From: Emticicia sp. BO119
GTDB taxonomy: Bacteria > Bacteroidota > Bacteroidia > Cytophagales > Spirosomataceae
DNA length: 64,000 bases
Assembly: GCF_013912375.1 (NCBI RefSeq)
Contig: NZ_JACETV010000002.1
Span: 1 to 64,000 of the forward strand
Direction of reading: 5' to 3'
Below, one piece after another: positions 7,581 through 28,200 of the stretch (position 1 is the stretch's first letter; each line of letters opens with the position of its first letter). Below the pieces are notes generated by a model. That model ran no database searches, was not told the origin of the DNA, and worked only from the letters and a program-made list of their open reading frames with translations. A program made the position numbers and the translations under genes.

Positions 7581-7676
7581 AGATACCTACCCCACAGGTT
7601 TTAGTCTTGATCCGTTTTTTCATACAAAATTCCTTTCTTTACAAAATCTTCTCTCAGTAAATCTTTAAATCAGGTA

Positions 7677-11600: not shown

Positions 11601-11878
11601 AATGCATCTTTCCAGTCAGGCTGCATGAATACCAGTTTTTTAGGCACTACGACTGGCGTAAACAAATTAGCATCAAAATTCTGAAAGCCACCTATGCCCA
11701 CTTGTTTCATCCAGTCTAAGTCTTTCCGGATGCCTTCTTTGGTGATATTCCCATTCATCCAATGCCACCAGACTCTTGGTTTAGCTGCATTAGGAGGGGT
11801 TTGGAAATCTTTCAATTGCTGACTTTGAGCCAAAGCCAGACCTGGAATGAACAGAATGAGGGCGATAGTTTTTTTCAT
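8624..11878 (-). CDS. GH106-like alpha-L-rhamnosidase
   Basis: A secreted glycoside hydrolase of about 1084 residues. ATG 11878 gives a clean signal peptide (MKKTIALILFIPGLALAQ); two in-frame ATGs lie 2 and 4 codons upstream. The region after cleavage has RVWWHWMNGNITKEGIRKDL, the characteristic opening of the GH106 catalytic domain. A discoidin-like segment (about 230-350) and C-terminal beta domains with a jelly-roll fold ending in NVTNLWVNRLIGDAQPD follow, as in GH106 enzymes. GH106 removes terminal alpha-L-rhamnose from glycans such as rhamnogalacturonans. It is the last gene of the ABC-transporter operon, 32 bases after the binding protein, which points to rhamnose or a rhamnoside as a pathway substrate. 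Confidence 0.85.
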   Translation of the reverse strand: MKKTIALILFIPGLALAQSQQLKDFQTPPNAAKPRVWWHWMNGNITKEGIRKDLDWMKQVGIGGFQNFDANLFTPVVVPKKLVFMQPDWKDAFRFATEHADKNGLEMAIAGSPGWSVTGGPWVKPEDGMKKYVWTELKIEGGKPFAGKLPQPSGALSNFQNVEAFGEGLSGGFVGTKPDFYRDALVIAYRIPAKEKTLAELNPKVTSSGGEFDLKKLTDGDLSKSTPLPPKAIDEDIWIQYEFDSPQTFRALSVVGANHGPLEQFNGSPENRSLQVSDDGVNFREVTKIHGSAVPQTTVSFAPTKAKYFRFVYKTLASSAGFAAMMGGNAPPPRPEGVSVAEFVLYTTSRIDKAEDKAGFLPWTETTASYLPDNTDAIAADDIIDVTAKMSNDGTLNWTAPAGNWMIVRLGYSLTGRQNHPASPEATGLEVDKLDKDAVRRYINTYLDMYKDATGGMMGAKGLQFMVLDSYEAGHMNWTKTFPEEFRKRRGYDLIKWIPALTGRVVKSAEDTEKFLWDFRKTIGELIAENHYDVIGEELHKRGMKRYTESHEGKRIYLADGMDVKRNAEVPMAAMWTPGSLAGGANEEVRSEADIRESASVANIYGKPYVAAESMTAVQNAFSWHPEKLKRTADLEMASGLNRFVIHTSVHQPLDDKKPGFSLGPFGQYFTRQETWSGAGAKAWMDYLGRSCYLLQQGKNVADILYLYGENTNITWVSREKLPNIPAGFEFDYVNSSALINAIQAKNGQLVANSGNTYKVLMLDESTKAMTLTVLKKIKALVDSGAKVIGEKPEKSPSLSDNDSEFKKLANEIWSKPNITTFDKVNLKPDVIISGAKNKILYRHRQSADQDIYWLDNRSSESTNAEISFRISGKIPELWNPQTGKTERVSYKIVNGRTIIPLKFESWDAYFIIFKGSSAAKSYTKAATSDKLIKEIAGTWKVNFNGKTADFAKLSSWSENTDTDIKYFSGTVTYENTFNLSSVDKSGKYIIDLGDVKNIAEVIVNGKNVGTAWKKPFKLDISEAVKAGENSIQINVTNLWVNRLIGDAQPDAKKTTFTTMPFYRKDAKLLPSGLLTPVNLYLNK

Positions 11879-11910
11879 ATTCATAAACATAGATTAGTAC
11901 TTGAATAAAA

Positions 11911-12828
11911 TTATTTCAAAAACTCACTGATATTAGTTTTCGTCACTAACTGAAATGGAATCATGACTTCCTTTTCAACCGCTTCCTTTTTTGCTAATTT
12001 TAAAGCAGTCTCAATCGCGCCTGCCCCTTGTTGTTTGGCATTCTGAAAAACAGTAGCATCTAAAGAACCATTTTTAACAGCCTGTAGTCCATCCTGAATG
12101 GCATCAATGCTTACCACGAGTACCTTGTCTTTCATGCCTGCTGCCTGTAGTGCTTTTACAGCTCCTAAACCCATTTCATCATTATGCGCAAACACCGCAT
12201 TTATTTTTGAGCCGTAAGACTGAATCCAGTTTTGCATCAAATCCATTCCTTTAGCTCTGTCCCATTCAGCAGTCTGGCTGGCAATTAGTTTGAGATCGGG
12301 GTATTGCTTTAGAATTTCTTTTGCTCCTTCTTCTCTTTGAATTTGGGCGGCCTGACCCATGAAACCATTAATCATTACCACGTTTCCTTTTCCTCCCAGT
12401 TTTTCAGCAATATGTTTCATGGCAATTCTACCGGATTCTCTATCATCTGACCCAACAAAAGCAGTAGGGGAGGTACTGGTAGCTGAATTGACATTAACTA
12501 TTGGTATCTTTGCTGCTAATGCCTTGCTTACTCCTGGCGAACTTGCCTCTACCTCGCAAGGATTCATGATGATAACATCTACTTTCTGAGAGATAAAGCT
12601 TTCCACCTGTTCGATTTGCTTCAAAGGCGAATGTTCGGCATCAACCAGAATCAATTCTACTCCAAGCTCATCAGCCTTTTTCTGCATTTCGTCACTGATA
12701 TTGACAATGAATTCGTTTTGCATACTGAGCATGGTAGCGCCTACTTTGATTTTCGCCTTTTCTTCTTTTTTGGCAGAATTACAAGATAGAAGCATTGAAA
12801 CTGCGGCAAAAAGGATGAGTTTTTTCAT
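11911..12828 (-). CDS. Ribose-type sugar-binding lipoprotein of an ABC importer
   Basis: A 305-residue periplasmic binding protein of the RbsB class (Peripla_BP_4). The lipoprotein signal MKKLILFAAVSMLLSC ends in the lipobox LLSC. The ligand-binding fold shows TMLSMQNEF at the start, an HNDEMGLGAV hinge segment and VVSIDAIQDG near the end, all typical of monosaccharide binders. It starts 1 base after the permease stop and is followed by GH106. Its ligand is not identifiable; neighbouring isomerase and oxidoreductase genes suggest a hexose, deoxyhexose or 3-keto-sugar. Confidence 0.9.
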   Translation of the reverse strand: MKKLILFAAVSMLLSCNSAKKEEKAKIKVGATMLSMQNEFIVNISDEMQKKADELGVELILVDAEHSPLKQIEQVESFISQKVDVIIMNPCEVEASSPGVSKALAAKIPIVNVNSATSTSPTAFVGSDDRESGRIAMKHIAEKLGGKGNVVMINGFMGQAAQIQREEGAKEILKQYPDLKLIASQTAEWDRAKGMDLMQNWIQSYGSKINAVFAHNDEMGLGAVKALQAAGMKDKVLVVSIDAIQDGLQAVKNGSLDATVFQNAKQQGAGAIETALKLAKKEAVEKEVMIPFQLVTKTNISEFLK

Positions 12829-12829
12829 A

Positions 12830-13768
12830 TTAATCTTTAATTTTTTGATTCCAACTATCTAATAAAACAGCGCCAATAATGATAACACCCATCACCACTT
12901 GCTGATAATACGAACTCACATTCAGTAAGTCTAAGCCATTATTTAAAACACCTATTAAGATTACGCCAAACAATGTTCCCTGAATACTCCCTACACCTCC
13001 CGAAGTACTTGAGCCGCCAATGACGGCTGCTGCAATAGCATCTAATTCAAAACTCATTCCGGCATTGGGCTGGCCAGTTGTGATTCTGGATGTCAGTAGA
13101 ATACCTGCTAAACCTGATAATAAGCCACAGAGTGCATAGACTGCCATTTTTACCTGATTGACATTAATGCCTGATGCCCAGGCCGCTTGCTGATTGCCAC
13201 CTACGGCATATACATATCGCCCGAAGATGGTTTTTTTTAAGACAATCGAACAGATAATGAATACTACAAACAAAATGATTATCGGAAACGGAATGCCCAG
13301 AATATCGCCTCCCCCTATGAAATTAAAGGACTCAGAAAGATTAGAGATTGGGCGACCCTTGCTGATAATCAATGCTAAACCCCGACCAATGGTCATCACG
13401 CCTAATGTGACAATGAATGGTGCAATTTTACTTTTGGTAATTATTAATCCATTTAATAGTCCAAACAATAAGCCTACGAATAACCCGCCAAGAATAGGAA
13501 TAATAACCGGATAACTGTCCTGCCGGGCCAATAAGGCTGCTGCAACCCCTGTAACTGCTACTACTGAACCAATGGAAAGGTCTATTCCGCCTGTAATAAT
13601 GACGAATGTGACTCCAAAAGCCAATAAGGCATTGATAGAAACCTGGGTAAAAATAATTAACCAGTTTGAGAGTGTCAGAAACTGGGGACTGATCAAACTT
13701 AGGGTAAGACAAACGGCCAAAAAAGCAATGAGAATGCCGTATTGTCTTAGGTTTTTAATGTATTGCAT
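12830..13768 (-). CDS. Ribose-type ABC sugar permease
   Basis: An RbsC-class inner-membrane permease of 312 residues from ATG 13768 (MQYIKNLRQYG). The upstream frame to 13840 overlaps the ATPase gene and encodes a basic stretch that is not part of the family, so the internal ATG is preferred; it overlaps the ATPase stop by 14 bases. It has about nine hydrophobic segments and the conserved permease motif GGIDLSIGS, plus AAAVIGGSSTSGGVGS in the second half. It forms the channel with the ATPase and the binding protein. Confidence 0.92.
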   Translation of the reverse strand: MQYIKNLRQYGILIAFLAVCLTLSLISPQFLTLSNWLIIFTQVSINALLAFGVTFVIITGGIDLSIGSVVAVTGVAAALLARQDSYPVIIPILGGLFVGLLFGLLNGLIITKSKIAPFIVTLGVMTIGRGLALIISKGRPISNLSESFNFIGGGDILGIPFPIIILFVVFIICSIVLKKTIFGRYVYAVGGNQQAAWASGINVNQVKMAVYALCGLLSGLAGILLTSRITTGQPNAGMSFELDAIAAAVIGGSSTSGGVGSIQGTLFGVILIGVLNNGLDLLNVSSYYQQVVMGVIIIGAVLLDSWNQKIKD

Positions 13769-15239
13769 ACTGCATGACTTTTTCCTGGGTCGCTTCTTGT
13801 CTTGACAATAGGGCAGTTTTTTTGCCTTTTGACAATACAAGTATCCGGTCGCTCACGCCAAAAATTTCAGGCAATTCAGACGAAATCAGGATAACTGCTA
13901 ACCCCTTACTCTTTAATTCATTAATTAATTTATAAATTTCAAATTTTGCTCCTATGTCAATTCCACGCGTGGGTTCATCTAAAATAATGATTTGGGGGGA
14001 AGACGATAAAACTTTGGCAATAACCACTTTCTGCTGATTACCCCCGCTCAGATAAATTAGCTTCTGATTGATGCTTGACGCTTTAATTTTCAGATTATTC
14101 TTCATCTGATTAGCCAGGGCTTCTTCTTGTGTATCAGAAACAAACCATGAATTTGACAGGCTTGGCAAAGATGATAAAGTGATATTTTGCTTGATCGATA
14201 ATTGTGGGATAAATCCTAATGCTTTACGGTCTTCGCTCACATAGCCAATACCCAATTTCATGGCAGCTTTCGGTGACCGAACAGCTACTTTTTCTTGATT
14301 AATAAAAATCTCTCCTTCCTCAAATTCATCTAATCCGGCAATTGCCCGGGCTACTTCGGTGCGGCCTGCACCCACCAATCCGGCAATCCCTAAGACTTCT
14401 CCTGATTTTACCTCAAAGTTGATATTTTCAAACTTTCCTGTCTGGCTTAAATTACTAACTCTGATGATGGTTTCACCAATAGAGTGTTCGGTTTTAGGGA
14501 AAATGTCTTCTATTTCTCTACCTACCATCATTGAAATGAGGTCTTTTATGGGTAGTTCCTGTGCAGATTTTGTAGCAATGTATTGACCGTCACGCAAGAC
14601 GGTAATTCTATCTGAAATCTGATAGATTTCGTCCATTTTGTGTGAGATATAAATTATGGCGACCCCTTTGCTTGTCAGGTCTTTAATGATAGTAAAAAGC
14701 GTAGAAACTTCTTTATCAGAAAGCGCCGATGTGGGCTCGTCCATGATAATGATTTTGGCATTGTTTGAGATAGCTTTAGCAATTTCTACCATTTGCTTAT
14801 CAGCAATGCTCAGATGCTTCATTTTTGCGTTGGCATCAATATTTACATTCAGCGTTTTGAGTAACTCTCTGGTTTTTTTGTAAATAGCTGCATCGTTTAA
14901 CCAACTGAAATGATGGATTTCTTTCCCTAAAAAGATGTTTTGTGCAACGGTTAATTCCGGAACCATCAGTATTTCCTGATGAATCATCGAAATGCCTCTT
15001 TTCAGCATCTCATGCACATTGGTATGCTGTATTTGTTCGCCATCTAAAATTATTTCACCCGAATCAGCCGGAAGCAACCCCATCAGAATCTTCATAAAAG
15101 TAGATTTCCCTGCACCGTTTTCTCCCATCAGTGCATGAACTTCTCCCTCTTCAAGATTAAAAGTAATGTGATCCAACACTTTCACTCCCGAAAAAGATTT
15201 ACAAAGATTTTGTACTTCGAGGATTCTCTTCTGACTCAT
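13755..15239 (-). CDS. Ribose-type ABC sugar ATPase (two nucleotide-binding domains)
   Basis: A tandem-domain ATPase of the RbsA/MglA class, 494 residues from ATG 15239 (MSQKRILEVQN). The first domain has Walker A GENGAGKST, signature LSIADKQMVEIAKA and Walker B IIIMDEPTSAL. The second has the degenerate P-loop GLVGAGRTE, signature LSGGNQQKVVIAK and IIILDEPTRGID. A degenerate second P-loop is normal in this class. It powers sugar import with the permease and binding protein encoded next. The upstream gene, an oxidoreductase, ends 61 bases before it. Confidence 0.93.
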   Translation of the reverse strand: MSQKRILEVQNLCKSFSGVKVLDHITFNLEEGEVHALMGENGAGKSTFMKILMGLLPADSGEIILDGEQIQHTNVHEMLKRGISMIHQEILMVPELTVAQNIFLGKEIHHFSWLNDAAIYKKTRELLKTLNVNIDANAKMKHLSIADKQMVEIAKAISNNAKIIIMDEPTSALSDKEVSTLFTIIKDLTSKGVAIIYISHKMDEIYQISDRITVLRDGQYIATKSAQELPIKDLISMMVGREIEDIFPKTEHSIGETIIRVSNLSQTGKFENINFEVKSGEVLGIAGLVGAGRTEVARAIAGLDEFEEGEIFINQEKVAVRSPKAAMKLGIGYVSEDRKALGFIPQLSIKQNITLSSLPSLSNSWFVSDTQEEALANQMKNNLKIKASSINQKLIYLSGGNQQKVVIAKVLSSSPQIIILDEPTRGIDIGAKFEIYKLINELKSKGLAVILISSELPEIFGVSDRILVLSKGKKTALLSRQEATQEKVMQYAIH

Positions 15240-15300
15240 ATATTCAAAAAATGCTGACAAGGCATTACACCTTGCCAGCATCATATATTACTATATCGAT

Positions 15301-16464
15301 TTAAACAAAATCACCATCAACGTTAGTATCCTTCCAACTTCTGCTATTGGCCGAATTAATTACGGCTTCGCATACTTTCTGGGTTTGCAATGCTTCTTTG
15401 AATGTTGGCGGGCAAGGAGTTCCTGCTTCCAGACTTTTCAGGAAGTCGGCTACTTGATGGACAAAGCTATGCTCATAGCCAATGCCAAGACCACCAACCC
15501 ACCATTTGTTCATATATGGTTGGTCGCCATCTGTTACGATGATTGAACGCCAGCCACGCACAATAGAATCGTCGCGGTGGTCGAAATATTCCATACGGTT
15601 TAAATCATGTAAATCCCAACGAATAGACGCATCTGCCCCATTGATTTCAAAAGTGTAAAGCGCTTTGTGTCCACGTGCATAACGAGTTGACTCAAAAAGT
15701 CCTAATGAACCATTCGCAAAGTGACAATGGAAAATACAGGCATCATCAATACCCACTGGTTGAACCTTGCCTGTCAATTGGTGCATACGTTCTTTCACGA
15801 ATGTTTCAGTTACTGCCGAGACATCAGTAATGGCACCATTTAACCACATAGCGGTATCAATACAGTGTGCCAATAAGTCTCCTGTTACACCAGAACCTGC
15901 TGCTTCTGAGTCCATTCTCCATAAGCCTGTACCTCCTTGCGGAAGGTCAGCGCTGATGGTCCAGTCTTGCAAGAAATTAGCGCGGTAGTGATATATTTTC
16001 CCTAATTTGCCCGAATCCACAATTTGTTTGGCCAGTGTTACCGCAGGTAATCTGCGGTAGTTGTACCAAACGGTGCTTTGTACTCCTGCTTCTTCAATAG
16101 CCTTAACCATTGCCTCGCCCTCTTCCAGATTACGTGAAAGTGGTTTTTCGCACAGAATCATTTTTCCTGCTTTGGCAGCAGCAATCGCGATTTCTGCGTG
16201 GCTATCGTTAGGTGTACAGATATCTACTGCATCAATATCATCACGTGCAATCAATGCTCTCCAATCGGTTTCGATTGATTCATAGCCCCATTGGTCGGCA
16301 AATGCCTGTACTTTTTCGGCATTTCTTGAACAAACCGCCTTTAAGACAGGTGTGTATTCTAATTCCGGGAAAAAGTTCGGAACACGGTTATATCCATTGG
16401 AATGGGTTCTACCCATAAAACCCGTTCCTATTAATCCTATTCTGAGTTGTTTCTTTGTTGACAT
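15301..16464 (-). CDS. Gfo/Idh/MocA-family oxidoreductase (cytosolic)
   Basis: A 387-residue NAD(P)-dependent dehydrogenase without a signal peptide. The Rossmann motif is [12 protein letters not shown], the conserved lysine motif is CEKPLS and the C-terminal alpha/beta substrate domain is complete. Relatives oxidise or reduce sugar hydroxyls, inositols or 3-keto-sugars. It starts 19 bases after the TIM-barrel isomerase stop in the same operon. Its cytosolic location and the neighbouring importer suggest that it reduces or oxidises the imported monosaccharide. Substrate unknown. Confidence 0.88.
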
Positions 16465-16483
16465 TGTTTAGTTGATTTTCGGT

Positions 16484-17512
16484 TTATTCTACCCATCCAT
16501 GTTGCTGACGAACTTTTATCATAGCTGCCAGAATATCGTTCCATGTTTTTTGTTGCGTCATCACATCATTGGCGAACATACAACCATCCCAACAGATATG
16601 TCTGAATGCTTTGGTCAATACACCTGCCTCATCGCGTAGCCAATAACCCGCATCATGTGCAATATCTAATTTACCATTCGGGTCTGTTGCCTGGCAGTGG
16701 CGACCTGTTTTATCATGTGAGCCTGAACCATAAACAGTACCATCGTTTTGTGCCACATGGAAATCAATTGTCCACGGACGAAGCGCTTTAGTCAGTTCTT
16801 TCAACCCTTTAAGGAATGTCTCTCTATCGCCCCATTGAAAATCTTCCGGCAGGATGCGGTGTTCCGGTGCATTATAGCCTAATAGATAGAGTGTTGTATG
16901 CGACATATCAGCCTGGAAACCAATATTCGGGCGGCCAACGGCTTCTAAGGTTTCAAGCATGGTTTTCCAGGAATGCATACCTCCCCAACAGATTTCACCT
17001 TCTGCCGCTAATTTTTCACCGTAATCGGCGGCTACATCGCAGGCTTCTCTGAAAGTCTGAGCTATTAATTTTGAATTACCAGCCGGGTCATTAGCCCAGT
17101 CATGAACGCCACTTGCTGAGTCGATTCTGACAATGCCATTGGGACGAATGCCCATCGCACGTAGTTTCTGACCAATTTCGCAGGATTTACGCACCATTTC
17201 AACAAATTGTTTGCGCTCATCAGCTGAACCCATCGCAGGACCTCCCCAGATAGGCGCAACCAGACTTCCTATTTCAAGATTATGTTTGGCAACTTTATCG
17301 GCTAATCTTTTTACTCCATCGTCTGATGTATCTAAATCATAATGAGGGTCGAAAAGACCTAAATCAACACCATCGAATTTTACACCATCTACCTCAGCCG
17401 CAGCCGTCATTTCAAGCATAGTGTCTAATGAAATCGGTGGCTCTGAATCCGGCCCTTTTCCTACAATACCAGGCCAGGTAGCGTTATGAAGTTTGGGATA
17501 ATTATTTTCCAT
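16484..17512 (-). CDS. Sugar phosphate isomerase/epimerase (xylose-isomerase-like TIM barrel)
   Basis: A 342-residue cytosolic TIM-barrel protein of the AP-endonuclease-2/xylose isomerase-like superfamily. Candidate metal ligands are in [19 protein letters not shown] and [11 protein letters not shown], followed by [14 protein letters not shown] near the end. Family members interconvert keto- and aldo-sugars or act on keto-sugar acids. It sits between the cupin isomerase and the oxidoreductase, each within 35 bases, so the three are surely cotranscribed. No signal peptide. The exact substrate cannot be read from the sequence. Confidence 0.85.
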
Positions 17513-17547
17513 TGAATTAATAGATTTTGAGGTTGTATTTTAATGTT

Positions 17548-18753
17548 TTATATCACCAAATCAGGATTATTCGGGCCAAAATGCTTCAACATCACAATCG
17601 GGTCGCAAGATGAATGATTGGTTATGGTTACACCTTCGACAGCAGCTTGCTCTGTAATAAAAAACTCATCATTCGTCAACTGTCCGTAACGGATTAATGA
17701 TGGGGTTTCAATATCCCAAACGCCCATTTTACCATGCCCCTGCATCATAATGATACCGTAAGCGGCACTATCTTTAATAGTTACTGTTTGCCCCGGAAGG
17801 ATAGTTAATTCTTTAGCCGAGAATGCTTCTGAACGGTAACAAACCCAGCTTTCGTTATAGCCTTCTGCTTCCATTTCGGCTACATCTTTTACTGGTCTTG
17901 GCGCCATGAAACGGGTCTCCAAAAGATTAGGATTTGTATTCAATTCCCAGTCAATTACACCCATCAATTGGTCATAATTACCAATCTGGTCTGGTGGTGT
18001 TCCATTCCACAATAATTCTTCCGGAATGATGGCTTCGTTTACCAAAGACTGGTACATGGCAAATACATCAGATGCTTTTTGTGGCTCGTAAGTACACATA
18101 CTGCCAGGCGCATGCAACATGCCCGGAGGAACGTCCCAACCCGTACCCGGAATCAATGGGAATGCCTGGGAGAACATGGTTATTTTGTTATCACCTTTGG
18201 TGAAATTCATCAGACATTCTTTGATTTGCTCTTTGGTTGTACCCGGTGCAATACCAAAAAATGTATATGGGAAATCTCCACCGTGGTTATTCAATTGTGG
18301 CGGAAAATAATAGGCTTCTGGTTTTCCTAATTGACCGATTTTCGCAGCTTCTTCGTCATTATGGTGAATATGGTGTGGCAATGGTCCCATATTGTCAAAA
18401 AACTTCGAATACATTGGCCAGCTTTTATATTCGTCCCAGAGGCGGCTTCCGATTATTTCTGCACCCAATTCATCTATCGCATCTTTGAGTAATACTCTTT
18501 CTCCTTCGTTTAAAACCACAAAGCTCAAACCTTCATTTTCTCCTGTTAGTGGACCGTTTTTGGCAGGTGTGGTTGATGACAGCCAACGCTCATCGATACC
18601 GCCACGCACGCCGCCTAATACGTAATAATCATCTGGATGTAATTTTATTCTTCGTCCGGGAACACAAAATGAACGAGGAACCCAAGTCGGAGCTAATCGT
18701 AAAATTCCTTTTCCTTGTTCTAATGCTTTTTGTGCTAAACTTAAATTTGACAT
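17548..18753 (-). CDS. Cupin, mannose-6-phosphate-isomerase-like
   Basis: A 401-residue two-cupin protein resembling class I phosphomannose isomerases. The metal-binding motif is HHIHHNDE, the following glutamate lies in KPEAYYF and the distal histidine in DVPPGMLHAPGS. It lacks a signal peptide, so it acts in the cytosol. The set is of the right type for an aldose-ketose isomerase or lyase acting on sugars, not necessarily phosphorylated ones. It is embedded in a catabolic operon with 35-base gaps on either side. The homologous family is poorly characterised, so 'isomerase' is an inference from the fold. Confidence 0.7.
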   Translation of the reverse strand: MSNLSLAQKALEQGKGILRLAPTWVPRSFCVPGRRIKLHPDDYYVLGGVRGGIDERWLSSTTPAKNGPLTGENEGLSFVVLNEGERVLLKDAIDELGAEIIGSRLWDEYKSWPMYSKFFDNMGPLPHHIHHNDEEAAKIGQLGKPEAYYFPPQLNNHGGDFPYTFFGIAPGTTKEQIKECLMNFTKGDNKITMFSQAFPLIPGTGWDVPPGMLHAPGSMCTYEPQKASDVFAMYQSLVNEAIIPEELLWNGTPPDQIGNYDQLMGVIDWELNTNPNLLETRFMAPRPVKDVAEMEAEGYNESWVCYRSEAFSAKELTILPGQTVTIKDSAAYGIIMMQGHGKMGVWDIETPSLIRYGQLTNDEFFITEQAAVEGVTITNHSSCDPIVMLKHFGPNNPDLVI

Positions 18754-18788
18754 AATATAATTCTTTGGGGTTGATTGTATTTTGATTT

Positions 18789-19847
18789 CTATATTTCTAA
18801 GGCATTTATTGCTAAGTCAAATGTACGGGTTTCGTAGGGGTACAGGAAGATTAATTCTTTATTGGCTCTTGCCTGTGCTTGTCCTATTGGTGGATTAGTG
18901 GCCGGTTCTATGCCTGTTACATACTCACCTTTACCCCAATGCTGCCAATTTATCAAATGTGGCAATTCGCTTTTGTTGAAATTGATTTCAACCTTTAAAC
19001 CTATTTTAGTATTGGAGAGTCCACAGGTACATTCACCTGAGTCGTTGGCTGTCGGGTCAATAAATACTACCTCTTCGCCAGTACCCAGATGGTCGTCAAT
19101 CGGAGCAGGGCATTTCTTGAAATCATTTCCTTCTCTGAAGATTCTGGCATTTTTAGATCCAAAACGTGGTTGCCATTGGCCTTTCCATAGAATTTCTGTT
19201 CCTTCATCAACCAGGGGATAACCAAAATTGAAGTGGTAAAGCAGCATCAATGGGGTAGGGGTATTGCCACGGTTAATCACCTCATCATGAATTCTGATGG
19301 TAGGTTCACCCAATCTCCCTGAAATGGTTCTGCGCAACTCTAAACTTGGTCCGAATACCTTGGTTTCTTTGATGATTCCGGTAATACTTATGTCCATTTT
19401 TCCTGCAACAGGATCAGGCTGAATGATTGACACGATTTCAGCAGGGGTATTGGAAATTTGTCCATGAACACCTCTTTCGCCAAATTCATCTTTTTCAGGA
19501 CCACCTACGTGCGATAGTCCGCAGGTAGTGAGTAAGCCGCCGCCAAATGTTCTAAGCCAGTCAATTCCTTTGTCTGACTGCGGTTGTGGAGCAGTGAACC
19601 CTCCATGACTCAACCATGCCAGACTATATTGGTTATAGAAGGCATCGGCTATGTCCATCCCTCTATCAAAAACAACTTTGTATCTTAAGCCAGTACCAGT
19701 ATTTATCCAGGCGATTCTGTTGCCGCGCCCTAATCCATTGTCTAAAATAGCTGTTTCGATACCACCAAGCTGAGCCGGATTTGATATTTTATTTTTCCAC
19801 CCTGGTTCTGTTGATAGAGACGCATCTACTTTTTGTTCATCATTCAT
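18789..19847 (-). CDS. DUF4432 aldose-1-epimerase-like protein
   Basis: A 352-residue protein of the galactose-mutarotase-like fold (DUF4432 group). ATG 19847 is preferred over an in-frame TTG ten codons upstream. Visible features are VVFDRGMDI near residue 60, a glycine-rich FGGGLLTTCGLSHVG, LLYHFNFGYPLV with the histidine expected in the active site, and a glutamate in VTGIEPATNP. Mutarotase-like proteins interconvert anomers or bind sugars. It is in the catabolic operon between DUF1080 and the cupin protein. No signal peptide is seen. Confidence 0.8.
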   Translation of the reverse strand: MNDEQKVDASLSTEPGWKNKISNPAQLGGIETAILDNGLGRGNRIAWINTGTGLRYKVVFDRGMDIADAFYNQYSLAWLSHGGFTAPQPQSDKGIDWLRTFGGGLLTTCGLSHVGGPEKDEFGERGVHGQISNTPAEIVSIIQPDPVAGKMDISITGIIKETKVFGPSLELRRTISGRLGEPTIRIHDEVINRGNTPTPLMLLYHFNFGYPLVDEGTEILWKGQWQPRFGSKNARIFREGNDFKKCPAPIDDHLGTGEEVVFIDPTANDSGECTCGLSNTKIGLKVEINFNKSELPHLINWQHWGKGEYVTGIEPATNPPIGQAQARANKELIFLYPYETRTFDLAINALEI

Positions 19848-19992
19848 ATTTCTGATACTTTCTTTGGTGCTTGTCAAGCATTACTCAACTATTTGAATGA
19901 TTGACTATTCTTGGTAGTTATAATTGTAGGTTTAAGATGTTTACCTGCCTGATACAAATGATTAGTGAAACTTTCTGTATTTTCTGGGCTAA
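19848..19992. other. 145-base gap within the operon
   Basis: AT-rich DNA between the DUF1080 stop and the DUF4432 start. No convincing promoter or terminator was recognised, so cotranscription is possible but a separate promoter cannot be excluded. Confidence 0.4.
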
Positions 19993-20766
19993 TTATAATT
20001 GTTTCAATCTTAAATTACGGTATTGCACTTTCATTGGTGGACCAACATGCACCTGAACACCCAAAAGCCCTTTTGATTTGCCATTTATTAAATCGTTGTC
20101 TGTTACATCGCTCATCAGGATACCGTTGATATAGTGTTGTAAACGATTACCTTTAATAATCAGATGAAAAGTATTCCAGTCTTCACTTTTGATTTTTGTT
20201 TTTAAAGCCTCATTTTCACCTAAACTTCCAATAACTTTTCGTTCTGTCCAGGCATTTCTTTGTACTTTAGCTCTTACATCTTCAGGCTTCCAAGTACCAC
20301 TCTGTGGATTGATACTGGCAATCTCCCCACGGTAAGCCAGAGTTGTGCGTCCTCGTTCTTCGTAATTCTGGCCTGTATAACGATTTGCTCCGTCTATATC
20401 AGCCTGATATCCTCTTAATGCGTAAGGTATATCAGGCAATTTTTCACTGCGATAATTAATCCCGGAGTTTCCTTTTTCAGTTATATTAAATTCTCCTTTT
20501 AATTCAAAATCGGCAGGTTCTCCGCCTTTCCATGTGATAAATGAATTGGTTTTAAGCAGGGTTTCGGGTGTAATTTCTCCTACTAAATTACCATTTTCTA
20601 CTCGCCAGTATTTAGTATCTCCTTCCCAGCCATTTAATGTTTTTCCATCGAAAATAGACTTGAAACCTTTTTCACTGTTACCTGAATTTGATACCTTGCA
20701 ACCTGTTAGCAAGATAATGAAAAGTAAAATTACTTGGCTAAGTTTTGAAATTTTTTTTGTTTTCAT
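19993..20766 (-). CDS. DUF1080 (3-keto-disaccharide hydrolase-like) lipoprotein
   Basis: A 257-residue lipoprotein from ATG 20766 (MKTKKISKLSQ). The longer frame to 20892 runs through a strong hairpin and the preceding gene, so it is rejected. The lipobox is LLTGC. The domain is a concanavalin-like beta sandwich, with FKSIFDGKTLNGWEGD at the start and a GNSGINYRSE strand, both hallmarks of DUF1080. Members of this family have been linked to cleavage of 3-keto-glycosides. Its neighbour upstream is a periplasmic heme dehydrogenase, which could make the keto group, so the two may work in sequence outside the inner membrane. Confidence 0.85.
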   Translation of the reverse strand: MKTKKISKLSQVILLFIILLTGCKVSNSGNSEKGFKSIFDGKTLNGWEGDTKYWRVENGNLVGEITPETLLKTNSFITWKGGEPADFELKGEFNITEKGNSGINYRSEKLPDIPYALRGYQADIDGANRYTGQNYEERGRTTLAYRGEIASINPQSGTWKPEDVRAKVQRNAWTERKVIGSLGENEALKTKIKSEDWNTFHLIIKGNRLQHYINGILMSDVTDNDLINGKSKGLLGVQVHVGPPMKVQYRNLRLKQL

Positions 20767-20790
20767 TGTATTATTTTGTTTTTCAGGAAA

Positions 20791-20836
20791 GTTTAGAGCG
20801 TGACACACGCGTTTATCTGTGTGCCACGCTCTAAAC
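20791..20836. repeat. 18-bp stem hairpin between dehydrogenase and DUF1080
   Basis: GTTTAGAGCGTGACACAC and GTGTGCCACGCTCTAAAC pair over 18 bases with one mismatch and a short loop. It lies in the 79-base gap between two genes transcribed in the same direction. No T tract follows on the minus strand, so it is more likely an mRNA-processing/stability hairpin or a small palindromic repeat than a terminator. Confidence 0.6.
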
Positions 20837-20845
20837 CCTAAATCG

Positions 20846-23539
20846 TTATTTTTGTGACTCAGCTTTCGCTGTAAACATTGGATTGTTTGCATTGCCTCCT
20901 GACATCAGGTAAGCCATCAGGTCTTTAAACTCTTCTTCATTCAGGCTATTAATCAGTCCCTGAAACATGATTGAAACATTAGAAGGCTTTTTAGAAGTCA
21001 CATTCTTTTTCAATACTTTTTCAAGGGTTTCAGGCGAATAAGGATTCTGTGAAACATAATAAGCAGTTTTATCTTCATTCACAAGACGACCTACAATTGA
21101 GCCCCCATTTTTCAAACTGAACTGAGTAGCTGCGTATTGGTCTGATACCGCTTTGTTAGGGTCAACAATAGCTTCCAGCATATCTTTTGCTGAAAACCTG
21201 GTGCCTAATTGCGTTAAGTCAGGTCCGGTTGCCCCCCCTTCGCCTTTCATGGTGTGGCAGGCTTTACAAGTGGTAGCTGCAAACATGGCTTTCCCCTGTT
21301 CAAAGTTACGTCCGGTCAGACCATTTTCTATTAATGGAAGTCCGGTTCTTAAATTCCAGAAACGACCTGGCCCTTTCGGAGTCGCTGCTGTAATTAAATC
21401 GTTGCCCGATTTGCTTAACATTTCTGCCCCTGAGAGTTTATCGAAATAATCTTTCTTAGTATCAGGCACGTTTTTCAGGGCTAATTTACGAGACCTGTCG
21501 ATGAATCCTACATAACTACGGCCACCTTTGTAATTGAAAGCATCACTAAACCATTTAAAGTAAGTTTCCTGCTCTTCTGGTGTCCAGCCTGTTTTTGCCA
21601 TCGTGAGTACATTAGCGTAATAAGTATGCTGGGCAGGCGGAACCTTAGCCAACATGGCCGCAATGTCGCCTCCATATTGTGAGCTTCTCAGAATCAAATC
21701 GCTTGAAGCAGTTGCTGTTTCCTGCATAAGGGCATTAGTGCCTGGTTCGTCTTTAATGGTCATCAATGCCAATGTTTTCTTGATAGCACTTGGCTCATCT
21801 AAGTAGTGCAAAAGTTTACTCAATGAACGATTTAATTGTGCCGAATTGGCTGGATAAAGCGGGCTTAGATAAGCCACAATTTTTGGTTTGATTGTAGCAT
21901 CTGGTTGCCCCATTCGTAAAAACGCCAGCTCAAAAGCACGATACACATCTAACTGTTGCGCCTCGTTCAAAGCTTTTATATTAATTCCTAATAAGGCATT
22001 CAGAATTTCACTTTGTTTATCGTTTTTACCCATACGGATCAATGAGATAAGGGCTTGTGTTGAAGCAACAGGGTCTTTTTCTTTAAGGGCTAACTCCTGC
22101 CACTCGCCTACCGGTTGATGCTCTATAGCTAAACGGGCAGCGTAACGGATAAATCTATCAGGGTTTTTTAATTGAGGCCATGCTGTAGCTACCGCATCTT
22201 TATTTGGCCCTCCTACATGAAATTTCTCTAAGTTTCGTCTTAAAGAGTTGGCCGCATTGATAGGAGCAGCAGCAACTGGAGCAGTACTTTCTGTACCTGT
22301 ATAATAAACACGGTATAAATCAGACTCTAATCTGCGTCCACCTGCAAGAAAATATAAGGCACCGTCAGGGCCAATTGCCCCGTCGGTCAATGGTAATGGC
22401 AGACCTGATAAAAACTCTTCCCTGGTACCTGTAAAAGAGGAGCCTGAAGGTTTCAGATTAATGGCGTGCATAATGCCGAAGCTCCAGTCGAAAGCTAATA
22501 AAGTGTTTTTATATCTGGCAGGGAATTTGGCGTCTTTTAAATGTAGTAAATTGGTTGGTGAACCTTGACCGATATTTACTACCGGAGGTAGATTGTCTGC
22601 AAAAGTCGGCGACCATTTGCTGTTTCCGGTTCTCCAGCCAAACTCACTGGCACTGGTAGCGTGGCAGATACGGGTTGGCCGATACCAAGGCAAGCCAAAA
22701 TCCCATTCCATGTCTGCATCATACACAAACAAATCCCCGTTTGCATCAAAGGCCATATCAAAAGCATTACGGTAACCAGCACTTACTAATTCCCAGTTTT
22801 TGCCTTCAGGGTCAGTATGGGCAATCCACCCACCGGGTGCCATGCGGTCGTTGGCGTGCCCACGTGGGTCTTTTATTAATGGGAATAAATTGTCTTCTTT
22901 CCAGTTTGATGGCAAACGATATGAGTCCATCGGAGGTACATCAGTATGATTTCCTGATATAACATATAATGATTGTTTATCAGGCGAATAGATAACGCTG
23001 TGAGGGCCATGTTCACCATCACCATTCATTTCTTTCAGCAGTGTGATTTTGTCAAACTGATCGTCGTTGTTAGTATCTTGCAAGCGGTAAAGGCCACTTT
23101 TTCTTGGGAATATCCTGTTATTCTTACTATTGTTAATCATTACATACAAGCTATTAAAAGCATATAATAGCCCATGTGCGTAACCCATACCAGTGGTATC
23201 AATATTCGGGCTTATACCAATCTGAAGTTTTTCAACTTCAACCTTATTGGCTGAACTAATGGCAGGGATTTTCAGTCGATATAGTTTCCCGTATTGGTCA
23301 GAGGCAATCATCCGGCCTTTGTCGTCAAAAGTCATGGAGACCCACGAACCCTGGTTATTTTCTGAAGGGCTGTAGAGGTGCTGTGCTGAAAATCCTTCTG
23401 AGAGCTTTAATTTTTTAATTTTCGGATCATCATTGTTTGATGCAGGTGGTGGCGTATTCCTTAGCATCGTAAAAGACGCTGCGGAGACTAAAGCCAGTAA
23501 GCCGACAGAAAGTTGGAGTGTTCGTTGATTGGATAACAT
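20846..23539 (-). CDS. Periplasmic beta-propeller dehydrogenase with HEAT-like and cytochrome c domains
   Basis: An exported protein of 897 residues. After an N-terminal membrane anchor or signal (about 8-25) comes a propeller of the membrane-bound sugar-dehydrogenase type (about 40-420; APGGWIAHTDPEGKNW, VYDADMEWDFGLPWYR, LPLPLTDGAIGPDGALYF). A helical HEAT-like region follows (about 430-650), then a cytochrome c domain with CKACH at 758-762 and a candidate methionine ligand near 858. Proteins of this layout (PVC-type heme-binding) are thought to pass electrons from an oxidised substrate to the respiratory chain. Next to DUF1080 and Gfo/Idh/MocA genes, sugar oxidation is the obvious guess. 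The substrate is not known. Confidence 0.85.
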   Translation of the reverse strand: MLSNQRTLQLSVGLLALVSAASFTMLRNTPPPASNNDDPKIKKLKLSEGFSAQHLYSPSENNQGSWVSMTFDDKGRMIASDQYGKLYRLKIPAISSANKVEVEKLQIGISPNIDTTGMGYAHGLLYAFNSLYVMINNSKNNRIFPRKSGLYRLQDTNNDDQFDKITLLKEMNGDGEHGPHSVIYSPDKQSLYVISGNHTDVPPMDSYRLPSNWKEDNLFPLIKDPRGHANDRMAPGGWIAHTDPEGKNWELVSAGYRNAFDMAFDANGDLFVYDADMEWDFGLPWYRPTRICHATSASEFGWRTGNSKWSPTFADNLPPVVNIGQGSPTNLLHLKDAKFPARYKNTLLAFDWSFGIMHAINLKPSGSSFTGTREEFLSGLPLPLTDGAIGPDGALYFLAGGRRLESDLYRVYYTGTESTAPVAAAPINAANSLRRNLEKFHVGGPNKDAVATAWPQLKNPDRFIRYAARLAIEHQPVGEWQELALKEKDPVASTQALISLIRMGKNDKQSEILNALLGINIKALNEAQQLDVYRAFELAFLRMGQPDATIKPKIVAYLSPLYPANSAQLNRSLSKLLHYLDEPSAIKKTLALMTIKDEPGTNALMQETATASSDLILRSSQYGGDIAAMLAKVPPAQHTYYANVLTMAKTGWTPEEQETYFKWFSDAFNYKGGRSYVGFIDRSRKLALKNVPDTKKDYFDKLSGAEMLSKSGNDLITAATPKGPGRFWNLRTGLPLIENGLTGRNFEQGKAMFAATTCKACHTMKGEGGATGPDLTQLGTRFSAKDMLEAIVDPNKAVSDQYAATQFSLKNGGSIVGRLVNEDKTAYYVSQNPYSPETLEKVLKKNVTSKKPSNVSIMFQGLINSLNEEEFKDLMAYLMSGGNANNPMFTAKAESQK

Positions 23540-23723: not shown

Positions 23724-25229
23724 TCAAAAATAAGGCGATAATGCTGCTTCGTCAGCAGGTAAACCATATAGTAAACTGATATTAGAAAAAGCATGGCTAC
23801 GGACTGTGGCACCTTCAGGGTAATAATATTCTACCGGATTGGCTTTAACTCTTTGCCCATAGGCAGTAATTACCTCAACGGCTGTGCCTGTGCGTACCAA
23901 ATCAAACCAACGTTTGTTTTCAAATGCCAGCTCACTTCTGCGATCCTGATAAATCTGCTTTCTTAAATCTGCCTGCGCTGTCATGGTAGCTTCCGGTAAC
24001 CCTGCACGCGTACGTACCTGATTAAGATAAGTTAATGCTTCTGCTCCTTTTCCTTGCTCCATTAATGCTTCTGCTAAGAATAAAAGAGCCTCCGCATAAC
24101 GATAAATCGGGAAATTATTACCTGTATTACCATGCAATGAGTGTGTTTTTGCAAATTTTTTGTTGTAAGGGAAAACCTTATTTGCTCGCAGACTTCCGCT
24201 TATCGTTACGTAACCAATGGTGGCATCTTTTCGCTTGTCACCAGCTTCAAAAGCATTAATTAAATCAGGAGTTGGAGCTCCATTCCCTTCGCCTGTTAAT
24301 GGTTGAGGGTTTGATGTTCCGGTGATTGGCTTTAACTCTTCCGGACTCATCGGACGAGGCAGATAGTTATAAATGATAGCACCGTTATAGCCAGAAGCAC
24401 CTTCCTGAAACTGTACTTCAAACATAGATTCTATATTATTTTTGTTTCCTGTATTGGTAGAGAAAGCATCATTGAAATCTGGCATCAATTTATATTCGCC
24501 ACTTGCTACAATTTCTTTCAATAATTTTTCTGCTTCTGCCCAGTTCTTTCTTACCATATATACATTTGCCAGTAACATTCTTGCAGTACCTGACGTAACT
24601 CTTCCTGCTTCTTGTTTCGATTTTGGTAGAAGCCCTGTTATAGCGGCACTTGCATCTTTGATAATTTGTGCATAAACAGCTTCAACATCTGATAGCTCGA
24701 GCGTTGCTTCCTGGCGGTTTGTTACCGGCGTAAGGTGCAAAGGCACTTTACCAAAATAACGCACTAATTCAAAATAGGCATAGGCTCTTAAAAACTGTGC
24801 TTGTCCTTTCAGATTATTTTTAGAATCAGCATTAAACTCAACCTTATCAATGGCAGATAAGACCTGATTAGTACGTGCAATTATCTGATAGTCTAGACGA
24901 TATTGATTCAGAACATGAGTGTTTGAAGTAACACCATTAGCTGTTGGTACAGCAAAATCTGCAATATCTTCCTGTTGCTCAGTAGCACCAAAAAGGATAT
25001 TTCTGAAATAATAAGCATTATCTGAGTGCATTTCTCCTAATAGCCATGCACGGTCGTTGACAATCGGGCGTAAAGGTACATAGGATGCATTTACTGCTTG
25101 TTGAAAATCAGCTTCTTTAGTAAAGAATATGGCGGTACTAAGATTCGTTTCTGGGACAACCGTCAAAAAGTCTTTGCAGCCCGTTAACCCCAAAAACATA
25201 AACAAGGTTATTATTGATATCTTTTTCAT
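23724..25229 (-). CDS. SusD/RagB-family outer-membrane lipoprotein
   Basis: A 501-residue glycan-binding lipoprotein with lipobox LTGC at residues 15-18. The SusD N-terminal TPR segment (AQFLRAYAYFELVRYFGKVP) and the C-terminal RagB/SusD domain (FPIYRYAEALLFLAEAL, then FENKRWFDLVRTG) are intact. It forms the lid of the SusC channel encoded 23 bases upstream and delivers oligosaccharides for uptake across the outer membrane. Binding specificity cannot be inferred from sequence. Confidence 0.95.
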   Translation of the reverse strand: MKKISIITLFMFLGLTGCKDFLTVVPETNLSTAIFFTKEADFQQAVNASYVPLRPIVNDRAWLLGEMHSDNAYYFRNILFGATEQQEDIADFAVPTANGVTSNTHVLNQYRLDYQIIARTNQVLSAIDKVEFNADSKNNLKGQAQFLRAYAYFELVRYFGKVPLHLTPVTNRQEATLELSDVEAVYAQIIKDASAAITGLLPKSKQEAGRVTSGTARMLLANVYMVRKNWAEAEKLLKEIVASGEYKLMPDFNDAFSTNTGNKNNIESMFEVQFQEGASGYNGAIIYNYLPRPMSPEELKPITGTSNPQPLTGEGNGAPTPDLINAFEAGDKRKDATIGYVTISGSLRANKVFPYNKKFAKTHSLHGNTGNNFPIYRYAEALLFLAEALMEQGKGAEALTYLNQVRTRAGLPEATMTAQADLRKQIYQDRRSELAFENKRWFDLVRTGTAVEVITAYGQRVKANPVEYYYPEGATVRSHAFSNISLLYGLPADEAALSPYF

Positions 25230-25252
25230 TCTCTTAAGGATGTTTATGTTAA

Positions 25253-28200
25253 TTAAAAGTTCAAGTTTATGCCAAGCGTGTAAGTTCTTGGAACAGGATA
25301 GTTCGAGAGGTCGATACCTTGGCTAAGGTTTCCACCGTTACCGTTACCATCACCTTGAGCTGATGTTTCAGGGTTTGGTCCACCCCAGTATTTGGTAAAT
25401 ACATATAGCTGTTGAACTGAAGTATAAATACGTGCTGATCTGAATACTTTATTAGGTCTTGGGATCGTATAACCAATAGTTACGTTTTTAATTGTAAAGA
25501 ATGAGGCATCAGCAATAAAACGGCTATTCATCCAGTCTCTTTCGATACCTGTTACGTTACCGCCACCAACAGTAGTACCATACATTCCTTTTCCGGGATT
25601 AGATTCAGAACGGAAACGATATTTTACGCCTTCTACTAAGTTAAATACCCCATCAAGATTGGCAGTACTGTAAATATGTCGAACTAACAGCTGATTGCCT
25701 TGTGAACCTGAACCAACGATGCTTGCATCAAAATTGCCATAGGTGAAGTTATTGACAATTCCATAAGTAAATTTAGGGAAAGGATTACCAATGATTACCC
25801 TATCATCAAAATCACCGCCGTTGGTAATAATTCCATCACCATTCTGGTCGGTTAATTTGATACTACCTACTACCGAACGACCAGGTACCTGTGGTGAGTT
25901 TTTCAGGTCTTCGGCATTCTGGTACATACCTTGAGAAACGTGTCCGTAGAATTGACCGAACGGATAACCCACTTTTGTAATATGGAAAGTTCCGTAAACA
26001 CGGTCAATACCATTAGCCAGAGCGATAACTTTATTGCGGTTGATAGAAATGTTGGCATTAGTACTCCATTTCAATTTTCCGGTTGTATTTCTGGTATTCA
26101 AGGCAAACTCATGACCCCAGAATTTAATTTCTCCGATATTATCGTTAAAGTTGCTGAATCCTGCCTCCTGAGCAATTTGTACACTATACAACAAATTAGT
26201 AGTACGCTTTGTATAGTAATCATAGACAAATGTGATTCGGTCATTGAATAAGCCGAGATCTAAACCAAGGTCTAATTGTTTGGTTGTTTCCCAACCTAAA
26301 TTATTGTTTGCCAATGATGTAACCACAGCACCAGGTGCTACAGTGTTGCCAAAAACAGCATTTACTGTATTATTTATCAAGGCATAAGGGGTGTAGTTAC
26401 CAATATTATTGTTACCGATTACACCGTAGCTTGCTCTTAATTTGGCAAAAGATATTTTAGGAATTGATTTGATAAAGGCCTCATCTGAAAGAACCCACCC
26501 TAATGAAACTGATGGGAAGGTACCCCAACGGTTGTCGGAACCAAAACGGGAAGAGCCATCTCGACGAACCGCAGCTGTTAACAAATATTTACCTTTATAG
26601 TTATACGTTAACCTCGAAAGGATTGAAGTTAAAGCCCATTCCTGCACCTGGCTTGATGTACCACCACGGTTGATATTAATGGCACCCTGAATTGTAGGAA
26701 GTCGGTCATCGGCATAGGTATCAGCTTGAACACGTGTACCTTCTTGTTGGAAACGTTGCTGTGTAAAACCTGCTAGTAGTTCAAAATTATGATCGTTTAT
26801 GGTTTTTGTGTAAGTCGCGAGGTTTTCGTTCAGCCATGTCAGATTTTCAAAGTTTTGGCGTATCGAAACTGCTGTTGTCGGAATGGCCACGTTAATGGCA
26901 CTTGTAGCAGTGGATGGATTAAAGAAGAAAAACTTTGAACGCAACATTTCAACATTGAAAGTTGATTTTAAAACAAGGTCTTTAATTGGACGATATTGAA
27001 TGTAAGCATTTGTAATTAAATTGGTTGTGGTAGTTTCATTTACCAATTCTTCAGCTGCCCTTACCCAGTTCGGATACGCAAAGATATTTCCAGTACTGGC
27101 CGGGAATCTGTTAAACAAAGTTAACGTTTTGCCATCTGCTTCATAAATAGGCATGATTGGCCAGGTATGCAAGGCATTAAACAAAATTCCTGTTCCTCTG
27201 TCTCCGTCAGTTCTTGGGGTATTGTCAAACACATATTGCGGAGCAATATTAAAACCAAGTGTTACTTTGTCAGATACGTCATATTCTGAGTTCATTCTTA
27301 ATGAATATCTTTTATATTCATTATTCAATACAACTCCTTGTTGGTTGAATACCCCACCCACAAAAGAAGTTCTTGCTTTTTCTCTGTTCGACGTAACGGT
27401 CAGATTATAGCTTTGAACAGGTGCTTTTCTTAGTAAAGCATCATACCAATCATTGTTTTTATCTCGGTATTGTGCAGGATTCTGAAATTCAACAGGTACT
27501 GCCTGACCAGCATCTTCGTAGGACTCTTTTTTAAACTGTGCAAACTCTTCAGCATTAAGCATTTTAATACGTCCTCTTTGTGGAACCTCCTGAATACCTG
27601 CAAAAGTGTTGAAACTTACAGTAGTGCCGGCCGATTTGCCTTTTTTAGTTGTAATTAATACTACACCATTAGCAGCTCTTGAACCATATAATGAAGTAGA
27701 AGAGGCATCTTTCAGAATAGAAATATCTTCAATTTCATCAGGGTTCATTGCACCGATATCCCCTGTGATAGGGAATCCATCAATTACATATAAAGGGTCA
27801 CTTCCGGCTGACACAGATAGCTGCCCGCGGATGCGGATACTCATACCTTGTCCGGGCTTTCCAGTGGTCTGGTTAATTTGTACTCCAGCTAACTGACCTT
27901 GGAGTTTTTGTCCGATTTGTGATACAGGAATATCTTTTATTTCTTTTGCTCCAACCGTTTGTACTGCTCCGGTTACATTTTTCTTTAGCTGGCTACCATA
28001 ACCTACCACAACGATTTCCCCTAATAGCTTTTCGTCAAGTTCTAAGGTTACGTTAATTTCAGATTCGTTGCCAATTGTTACTTCTTTTGCAGTAAAACCA
28101 ACAAAACTGTAGACTAAAACTGAGCCTTTAGTGGCATCAATTTTATAGGTACCATCAACTCCAGTCTGAGTTCCACGGGTTGTTCCTTTTACTGAAACGT

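Follow-up and report, generated by a model that had tools for sequence, protein, structure and literature searches.

A conserved heme protein, DUF1080 and cupin gene unit in Emticicia sp. BO119 and its possible role in glycoside breakdown through keto-sugars

The gene unit and its products

We analysed a 64,000-nucleotide stretch of DNA (the window; positions 1 to 64,000 of contig NZ_JACETV010000002.1) from Emticicia sp. BO119, whose genome comprises 6.57 Mb, and in which an original prediction had read six genes at 15301-23539 as a redox pathway of glycoside breakdown. The open reading frames (ORFs) confirm the six genes read there, all encoded on the minus strand and tightly spaced, and the Pfam and NCBIfam searches confirm the families of all but one, a cupin-type protein. 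The unit had been drawn too narrowly at both ends, i.e. it continues into SusD and SusC genes at 23724-28345 and into an importer at 11911-15239, and, counted from the likely starts, the reading frames from the SusC gene to a GH106 gene are consecutive on the minus strand and separated by fewer than 190 bases each. The unit is larger than six genes and comprises SusC, SusD, a heme protein, DUF1080, DUF4432, a cupin, a TIM barrel and a Gfo/Idh/MocA oxidoreductase, often with an RbsABC-type importer, and it is found repeatedly among environmental Bacteroidota. At the nearest named locus, that of Emticicia agri (L044), the order from SusC to GH106 is identical, with 86-97% identity.

The first gene of the unit (25253..28345) encodes a SusC-type outer-membrane transporter and the second (23724..25229) a SusD-type surface glycan-binding lipoprotein with a lipobox, both names being read from the sequence. 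The third gene (20846..23539) specifies an exported beta-propeller/HEAT/single-heme cytochrome c protein of 897 amino acids, which we presume to be a sugar dehydrogenase. Its heme domain matches TIGR02603 with 99.4 bits (cut-off 68.15) and exactly one CxxCH motif is present in all 65 relatives that we compared. It shares a propeller-like N-terminus and a C-terminal single-heme domain with the PVC-type heme-binding CxxCH proteins, but differs from them in that its N-terminal domain reaches 73.5 bits with TIGR02604, under the cut-off of 122.2. The AlphaFold model has a mean pLDDT of 61.9 and is poor in the propeller; a Foldseek search with this weak model returned the pyrroloquinoline quinone (PQQ)-dependent soluble glucose dehydrogenases 5min and 1cru first (E 6e-5), followed by the Kuenenia diheme cytochrome Kustd1711. 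We take the resemblance to PQQ glucose dehydrogenases suggested by these fold matches as a lead. The family of soluble glucose dehydrogenases (GSDH), whose fold is a six-bladed propeller, was absent from the Pfam matches of the heme protein, and an hhalign comparison of its propeller with E. coli YliI recovered the Arg-Asn segment alone (E 0.027-0.042).

The DUF1080 protein (19993..20766) matches PF06439, the 3-keto-disaccharide hydrolase family, with 121.6 bits (E 5e-35). Its ORF opens at 20892 and overlaps the preceding gene only by way of the first ATG; as the lipoprotein signal begins at Met43, translation probably starts at 20766, giving a probable periplasmic lipoprotein with the lipobox LTGC. 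Its best match in the PDB is 4jqt, named a ‘putative glycosyl hydrolase’ (E 1e-14). The DUF4432 protein (18789..19847 from its likely start, the ORF opening at 19877) has no signal sequence, matches PF14486 with 331 bits as the single such protein in its genome, and resembles the solved aldose 1-epimerase (mutarotase) 3ty1 (E 6e-21). E. coli YphB, which lies beside an Rbs-type importer, was considered as a relative of DUF4432 and rejected, no similarity being found.

The original prediction had counted two isomerases. One of them, the TIM-barrel protein (16484..17512), is confirmed as a member of the PF01261 sugar isomerase/epimerase/dehydratase-like group (57.6 bits), with no match in the PDB at E 0.001 and none in NCBIfam. 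The other, a cupin-type protein of 401 amino acids (17548..18753), has no Pfam match at E 1, no NCBIfam match at E 0.001 and no second copy in its own genome. When a profile of 13 relatives was compared with the PDB, the first eleven matches were mannose-6-phosphate isomerases, all weak (E 0.0019-0.067). The zinc ligands of type I mannose-6-phosphate isomerases are Q/H-x-H, E and H, and the cupin residues H128, H130, K144, E146 and H214 (H-x-H, K-x-E and H) are invariant in the 13 sequences, H128, H130, E146 and H214 corresponding by eye to these ligands. The likeness to class I cupin isomerases consists of remote profile similarity and the shared pattern, and the differences are the absence of a Pfam match for the cupin of the window and of a kinase from the conserved gene set; its AlphaFold model has a mean pLDDT of 53. 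These similarities remotely suggest an isomerase.

The last enzyme of the original six (15301..16464) contains the Rossmann and C-terminal domains PF01408, PF22725 and PF02894 of Gfo/Idh/MocA oxidoreductases. The catalytic pattern of this superfamily is Lys-Asp-His, and K107, D196 and H200 are conserved in at least 98% of 66 relatives together with the protein of the window. It is related to levoglucosan 3-dehydrogenase, scoring 328.2 bits with NF052479 (cut-off 650), and in the PDB it matches 4h3v (E 3e-101) and then levoglucosan dehydrogenase 6a3f (E 4e-79). Beyond it, Pfam and NCBIfam matches identify an ATP-binding cassette (ABC) importer made up of an RbsA-type ATPase (13755..15239 from its likely start, ORF opening at 15284), an RbsC-type permease (12830..13768 from its likely start, ORF opening at 13840) and an RbsB-type binding lipoprotein (11911..12828; PF13407, 223 bits) with a lipobox. 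The GH106 alpha-L-rhamnosidase gene that follows (8624..11890; PF17132, 1091 bits) is a local addition and not part of the core.

The cellular location of these proteins was predicted by a simple signal test with our own rules, applied to proteins of usable length. Export signals were predicted for 50/53 heme proteins, 26/28 DUF1080 proteins and 27/28 RbsB proteins, and for none of the DUF4432 (0/73), cupin (0/80) and TIM-barrel (0/68) proteins. These predictions fit a scheme in which the heme protein and DUF1080 are exported and the other four proteins are cytoplasmic, as had been proposed, with the reservation that four of 66 oxidoreductase copies, not including that of the window, carry predicted signals.

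Conservation and dispersal of the unit

To define the unit we examined loci L044-L123, which are the best 80 of at least 571 relatives by cupin similarity (at least 79% identity) and form a related sample. The full-length set consists of the 53 loci longer than 21 kb, the 27 shorter ones being excluded, and the cupin is present in all of them by selection. Among these 53 loci the Gfo/Idh/MocA gene is found in 52, the TIM-barrel gene in 51, DUF4432 in 51, DUF1080 in 50 and the heme protein in 37, together with SusD in 27, SusC in 26 and RbsA in 25. By chance, approx. 0.08 DUF1080 matches would be expected per 21-kb stretch, as calculated from the 24 matches in the genome of the window. These data clearly show that the six families belong together in a conserved unit and are not neighbours by accident: apart from the heme protein, the families accompany the cupin in 50-52 of 53 loci, and the lack of co-occurrence that the original prediction had named as telling against it is not what we found.

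A wider survey of 296 Bacteroidota genomes (that of the window included) gave cupin matches in 26, with ten at 50% identity or above, eight at 35-39%, and the remaining eight being very weak and covering part of the protein. Seven of the nine close relatives besides the window have all five other genes nearby in varying order; in L028 the heme protein alone is missing from the six-gene set, and L035 (G200) is a 3.7-kb contig where an RbsB relative is the sole companion of the cupin. As a negative control we took L036-L043, which hold a distant subfamily of the cupin (33-39% identity) in clusters different from this unit: relatives of DUF1080, DUF4432, the TIM barrel, the oxidoreductase and the heme protein were found at none of these eight loci (blastp, E 1e-5). 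Six of the eight (L037, L038, L039, L041, L042 and L043; 33-37%) have the cupin in a further cluster that looks conserved and contains a GH2-like gene and an importer ATPase of a different sort, these names being given by eye.

A second layout of the unit was also observed, where as many as four additional genes come after DUF1080, encoding two more TIM-barrel-like proteins, a ThuA-like protein (by eye) and an alpha/beta hydrolase. In NCBIfam the extra TIM barrels come closest to D-psicose 3-epimerase, with 161 bits, and to myo-inosose-2 dehydratase, with 68 bits, neither score reaching its cut-off. The third TIM barrel occurs in 14/16 full-length loci without a nearby heme protein vs 6/37 with one (n=53).

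Since 16/53 full-length loci lacked the heme protein at the thresholds used, 14 of those genomes (all but L085 and L112) were searched for it elsewhere, and two shorter loci, L098 and L110, were added to give 16 genomes. The heme protein was present in all 16, with 59-78% identity, lying on the contig of the cupin at a distance of 8-15 kb in six (one of these copies being a C-terminal fragment that abuts the end of its contig) and on a different contig in ten. At all 15 split places that were read, SusC and SusD proteins like those of the window (67-81% and 60-77% identity respectively) adjoin the heme protein. In L050, L121 and L108 the oxidoreductase gene is followed by RbsABC, SusC, SusD and the heme protein, and RbsABC, SusC and SusD also occur at the place of the heme protein in G190. 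One of the 16 heme-protein genes, at G311:C84:10565-13156 (L156), contains one in-frame TAG, which reflects either decay or an assembly error. In the survey set, the heme protein (E 1e-100) was found in 9/10 genomes with a cupin of at least 50% identity compared with 16/286 others (Fisher 5e-10, a value inflated by shared ancestry and by inclusion of the genome of the window itself). As a substitute in loci without the heme protein we also considered LacABC, the three-part dehydrogenase of GMC/gluconate 2-dehydrogenase subunit 3 type from a known periplasmic 3-keto route that we take to be respiratory; no GMC/LacABC substitute was seen by eye in the loci inspected, and the heme protein itself was found in all 16 genomes tested.

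The heme protein is encoded a second time in the genome of the window (67% identity), at G000:C26:107155-109761 (L129:9110-11773). Its neighbours appear by eye to be enolase-superfamily, glyoxalase, hydroxyacid dehydrogenase and ThuA-like proteins, with one epimerase-like protein below cut-offs, and no DUF1080 match was found within 20 kb. An enolase-superfamily neighbour is also found beside Lac161_ORF7, a protein of similar architecture considered below (PMC5342196, in the available part of that report).

Transcription and surrounding DNA

The junction between the oxidoreductase and rbsA genes carries a 33-base hairpin with a T-run (15250..15282, minus strand), a candidate terminator or attenuator with a 15-pair stem that occurs once in the window. 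Its folding energy is -23.1 kcal/mol, with a z-score of -4.35 over a 67-base stretch, and a similar hairpin is present in the same place in E. agri, the hairpins of other loci being unrelated. Stems of at least ten pairs were found at 15/31 oxidoreductase-rbsA junctions, mostly of unrelated sequence, a count made without a shuffled control and in which long junctions favour long stems. The hairpin may stop or weaken transcription ahead of the importer genes. It alone stands out, as scans for promoters and terminators gave numbers close to those of shuffled sequences (46 vs 50.9 and 17 vs 17.1 respectively) and the Bacteroidota-type promoter pattern was found four times vs 5.65 expected. At the same junction, REP-type (repetitive extragenic palindromic) transposase-like small proteins were seen by eye in several loci, e.g. 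L098 and L113.

Upstream of the unit, positions 28752-50568 hold a separate, larger glycan-use cluster with GH92, sulfatase, GH78 and an alpha-galactosidase-like gene and its neighbour, as well as a protein with two DUF1080 domains and a SusC/SusD pair of its own (by eye); the products of 36348-37901 and 41991-43697 have no Pfam match over cut-off. At the other end, positions 1-8000 have a low G+C content (0.32-0.36) and contain two phage-integrase-family genes, a type I restriction HsdR gene and an ISL3-type transposase gene, and we regard this region, from its gene content, as the probable edge of a mobile or defence region.

A possible route through keto-sugars and its alternatives

The reading that we favour, tentatively and with a confidence a little short of even, is that of a single catabolic unit working across both membranes, with periplasmic oxidation and cleavage, import, and cytoplasmic conversion into an ordinary hexose. 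SusC and SusD would bring a small glycoside into the periplasm, where the propeller-HEAT-cytochrome c protein would oxidize a ring hydroxyl, most likely at C3, and pass electrons through its single heme onward to the respiratory chain. The DUF1080 lipoprotein would then cleave the activated glycosidic bond, and the keto-sugar would be taken up by the RbsABC-type importer, or by another carrier where this is missing. In the cytoplasm, DUF4432 would mutarotate the keto-sugar, the mannose-6-phosphate isomerase-like cupin and the TIM barrel would carry out isomerization or dehydration/hydration, and the Gfo/Idh/MocA enzyme would use NAD(P)H to reduce the product to a common hexose. We infer every reaction, the order of the reactions, the C3 position and the substrate, and regard 3-keto chemistry as plausible. 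The C3 position is proposed because DUF1080 and a levoglucosan-dehydrogenase relative keep company in the unit; in the available parts of the respective papers, the 3-ketotrehalose hydrolase BT2157 is a characterized C3-active DUF1080 member (PMC9007349) and levoglucosan 3-dehydrogenase a characterized C3-active relative of the oxidoreductase (PMC7676230).

The closest precedent is the periplasmic 3′-ketolactose route known from Caulobacter and, in related form, from Pedobacter and Indibacter, for which the available part of PMC9007349 describes a membrane-bound periplasmic dehydrogenase (LacABC) and a periplasmic DUF1080 hydrolase, with a transporter, a reductase and two epimerases close by. 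The claim that the unit of the window represents a ‘distinct’ respiratory version was too strong in the light of this published route: a periplasmic 3-keto route with DUF1080 is already known, and it is the type of dehydrogenase and the downstream enzymes that are new. In the window the exported DUF1080 adjoins the exported presumed dehydrogenase, the latter role being our inference, as the LacABC/DUF1080 pathway requires. However, LacABC is a three-part enzyme of another family, compared with the single fused propeller-HEAT-cytochrome protein of the window, and no LacABC-type dehydrogenase was matched among the ten proteins scanned, the five PF13618 matches of the genome lying on other contigs. 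By description the two systems are set apart further, in that neither the cupin nor DUF4432 is named in the available text of PMC9007349, and PF14486 had no match in a Caulobacter control genome. In Bacteroides thetaiotaomicron, BT2157-BT2159 likewise combine a DUF1080 hydrolase (BT2157) with Gfo/Idh/MocA proteins in a member of the Bacteroidota, but the latter are 3-dehydrogenases by their NCBIfam names, and the oxidoreductase of the window scores just 37.9 bits (cut-off 650) and 34.2 bits (cut-off 750) with these families.

The sole biochemical clue to the heme protein that we found is Lac161_ORF7 (AGW45552), from a Verrucomicrobial cosmid, which shares a TIGR02604-type N-terminus, HEAT repeats and one CxxCH cytochrome c domain with it. 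According to the available part of PMC5342196, the purified protein liberated glucose from lactose with a Km of 1.8 mM and a kcat of 13.2 per s, and its authors proposed a new beta-galactosidase family; its neighbours are given there as an enolase-superfamily protein, a PF14100 protein and another reported beta-galactosidase, with no DUF1080, cupin or DUF4432 named beside it. By analogy, this activity fits an action of the heme protein on glycosides, although it could be plain hydrolysis. Of the proposed role as a sugar-3-dehydrogenase, what stands is the link to sugars, with sugar dehydrogenases first in the fold search and an architecture-mate active on lactose (PMC5342196, as far as available), whereas the 3-keto product is a conjecture.

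Several observations weigh against the proposed route. The best fold matches of the heme protein are PQQ enzymes, on a model that is weak in the propeller, and PQQ glucose dehydrogenases oxidize C1. The two Arg residues that precede GPDG in E. coli YliI are absent from the heme protein when aligned by eye, and pqqC was found in none of nine heme-protein genomes, the control genomes also giving no match. The heme protein occurs without the rest of the unit as well: DUF1080 adjoins it in two of ten places read (excluding the genome of the window and G190), and G111, a congener of G076, has the heme protein and no cupin. The importer ATPase RbsA is present in just 25/53 full-length loci. The DUF1080 protein belongs to the family expected of a 3-keto glycoside-cleaving enzyme, but shows only weak similarity to solved structures that carry the name 3-keto-disaccharide hydrolase or a like one (8rr2, E 0.032; 8tda, E 0.033), and other DUF1080 activities exist, such as an endo-xanthanase/lichenase (PMC9007349, in the available part). 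Finally, the lactose assays of Lac161_ORF7 name no electron acceptor in the available text of PMC5342196.

Some of these points would suit oxidation at C1 to a lactone, in which case DUF1080 would serve as a conventional hydrolase or as a lectin, and an aldonate-type or other unusual sugar would be processed by the cytoplasmic enzymes. In addition to the modelled similarity to PQQ glucose dehydrogenases, the module of G162 adjoins galactonate-type pathway genes and a gluconolactonase-like gene (by eye), and the second heme copy lies near enolase-superfamily and epimerase-like genes with no DUF1080 match in 20 kb. However, DUF1080 accompanies the unit in 50/53 full-length loci, and no lactonase or aldonate dehydratase is among the clusters that recur in at least eight of the 80 loci (judged partly by eye). 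We consider C1 chemistry unlikely.

An alternative that we hold to be similarly improbable is a levoglucosan-like cytoplasmic set, in which the NAD-dependent Gfo/Idh/MocA enzyme oxidizes C3, one TIM barrel catalyses beta-elimination and another hydration, and the exported proteins serve to make the glycoside ready or to bring it in. Levoglucosan dehydrogenase is the closest characterized relative of the oxidoreductase, and extra TIM barrels occur in the full-length loci (TIM3 in 20/53 and TIM2 in 22/53). Gfo/Idh/MocA and PF01261 proteins together with an ABC importer are likewise encoded in the lgd cluster (PMC10066097, in the part available), and the pathway LgdA-LgdB1-LgdB2-LgdC shares C3 chemistry with our proposal; it differs in being NAD-dependent and in that no DUF1080, cytochrome or SusC/D is named in the available texts (PMC7676230 and PMC10066097). 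Against this, the oxidoreductase reaches half the family cut-off (328 vs 650) and is closer to the uncharacterized 4h3v than to 6a3f, and both the heme protein and DUF1080 would be redundant.

Compatible with any of these mechanisms is a specificity for L-rhamnose-containing glycosides, the unit feeding the rhamnulose-1-phosphate pathway. Both the window and E. agri have a GH106 gene behind the importer, and rhamnulose-1-phosphate aldolase genes that score above their family cut-off are found next to the module in L027, L034 and L045 and at a distance of 13 kb in G076. The pattern was first noticed in L027, L034 and L045, however, and counted afterwards. Among 38 further genomes, with L076 and L094 outside the scan, the aldolase lay within 20 kb of the cupin (the distance intended beforehand, although unrecorded) in one, with 0.26 expected (P 0.23); it lay within 40 kb in four and within 105 kb in eight, which is above expectation, but these distances were picked after seeing the data. 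Near the module, a GH78 relative occurs in 2/80 loci and GH106 in 1/80 (that of E. agri). The link to rhamnose is suggestive, and we doubt that the unit as a whole is specific for it.

Less likely again, and in our judgement quite improbable, is that the heme protein is itself a glycosidase that cleaves directly, either by plain hydrolysis or through a redox-neutral cycle, with its cytochrome domain otherwise employed. The release of glucose from lactose by Lac161_ORF7 (PMC5342196, in part) speaks for it, but this is a single report with expression in E. coli and no control for the host beta-galactosidase in the available text, the two proteins are likened by domain architecture alone, and both DUF1080 and the heme conserved in 65/65 relatives would be left unexplained. 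That unrelated sugar genes are neighbours by chance has almost no probability left, for DUF1080 is indeed common, with 24 matches in the genome of the window, but the conservation of the unit across loci refutes this explanation.

A reading that goes further than the proposed keto-sugar route and is slightly less probable, which we also put forward tentatively, is that the unit represents a second, independently evolved respiratory 3-keto-glycoside pathway that is widespread in environmental Bacteroidota, in which a single-chain propeller-cytochrome dehydrogenase, possibly not PQQ-dependent, replaces LacABC, and in which the mannose-6-phosphate isomerase-like cupin and DUF4432 handle unphosphorylated keto-sugars. 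A literature search, which covered few subscription journals, found no description of this gene module. Such a pathway would further account for the identification of a Verrucomicrobial protein with this architecture as a lactose-splitting ‘beta-galactosidase’, and the heme protein offers a direct route to testing both the function of PVC-type heme proteins and whether the reported beta-galactosidase is oxidative. The unit ties four poorly understood families, i.e. the PVC-type heme protein, DUF1080, DUF4432 and the cupin that lacks a family model in Pfam and NCBIfam, into one testable pathway, to which annotation pipelines are nearly blind because several of its enzymes are nameless. The cupin family is common, with at least 571 confirmed relatives among named genomes, and sugar oxidation outside the inner membrane would alter predictions of carbon use for these bacteria.

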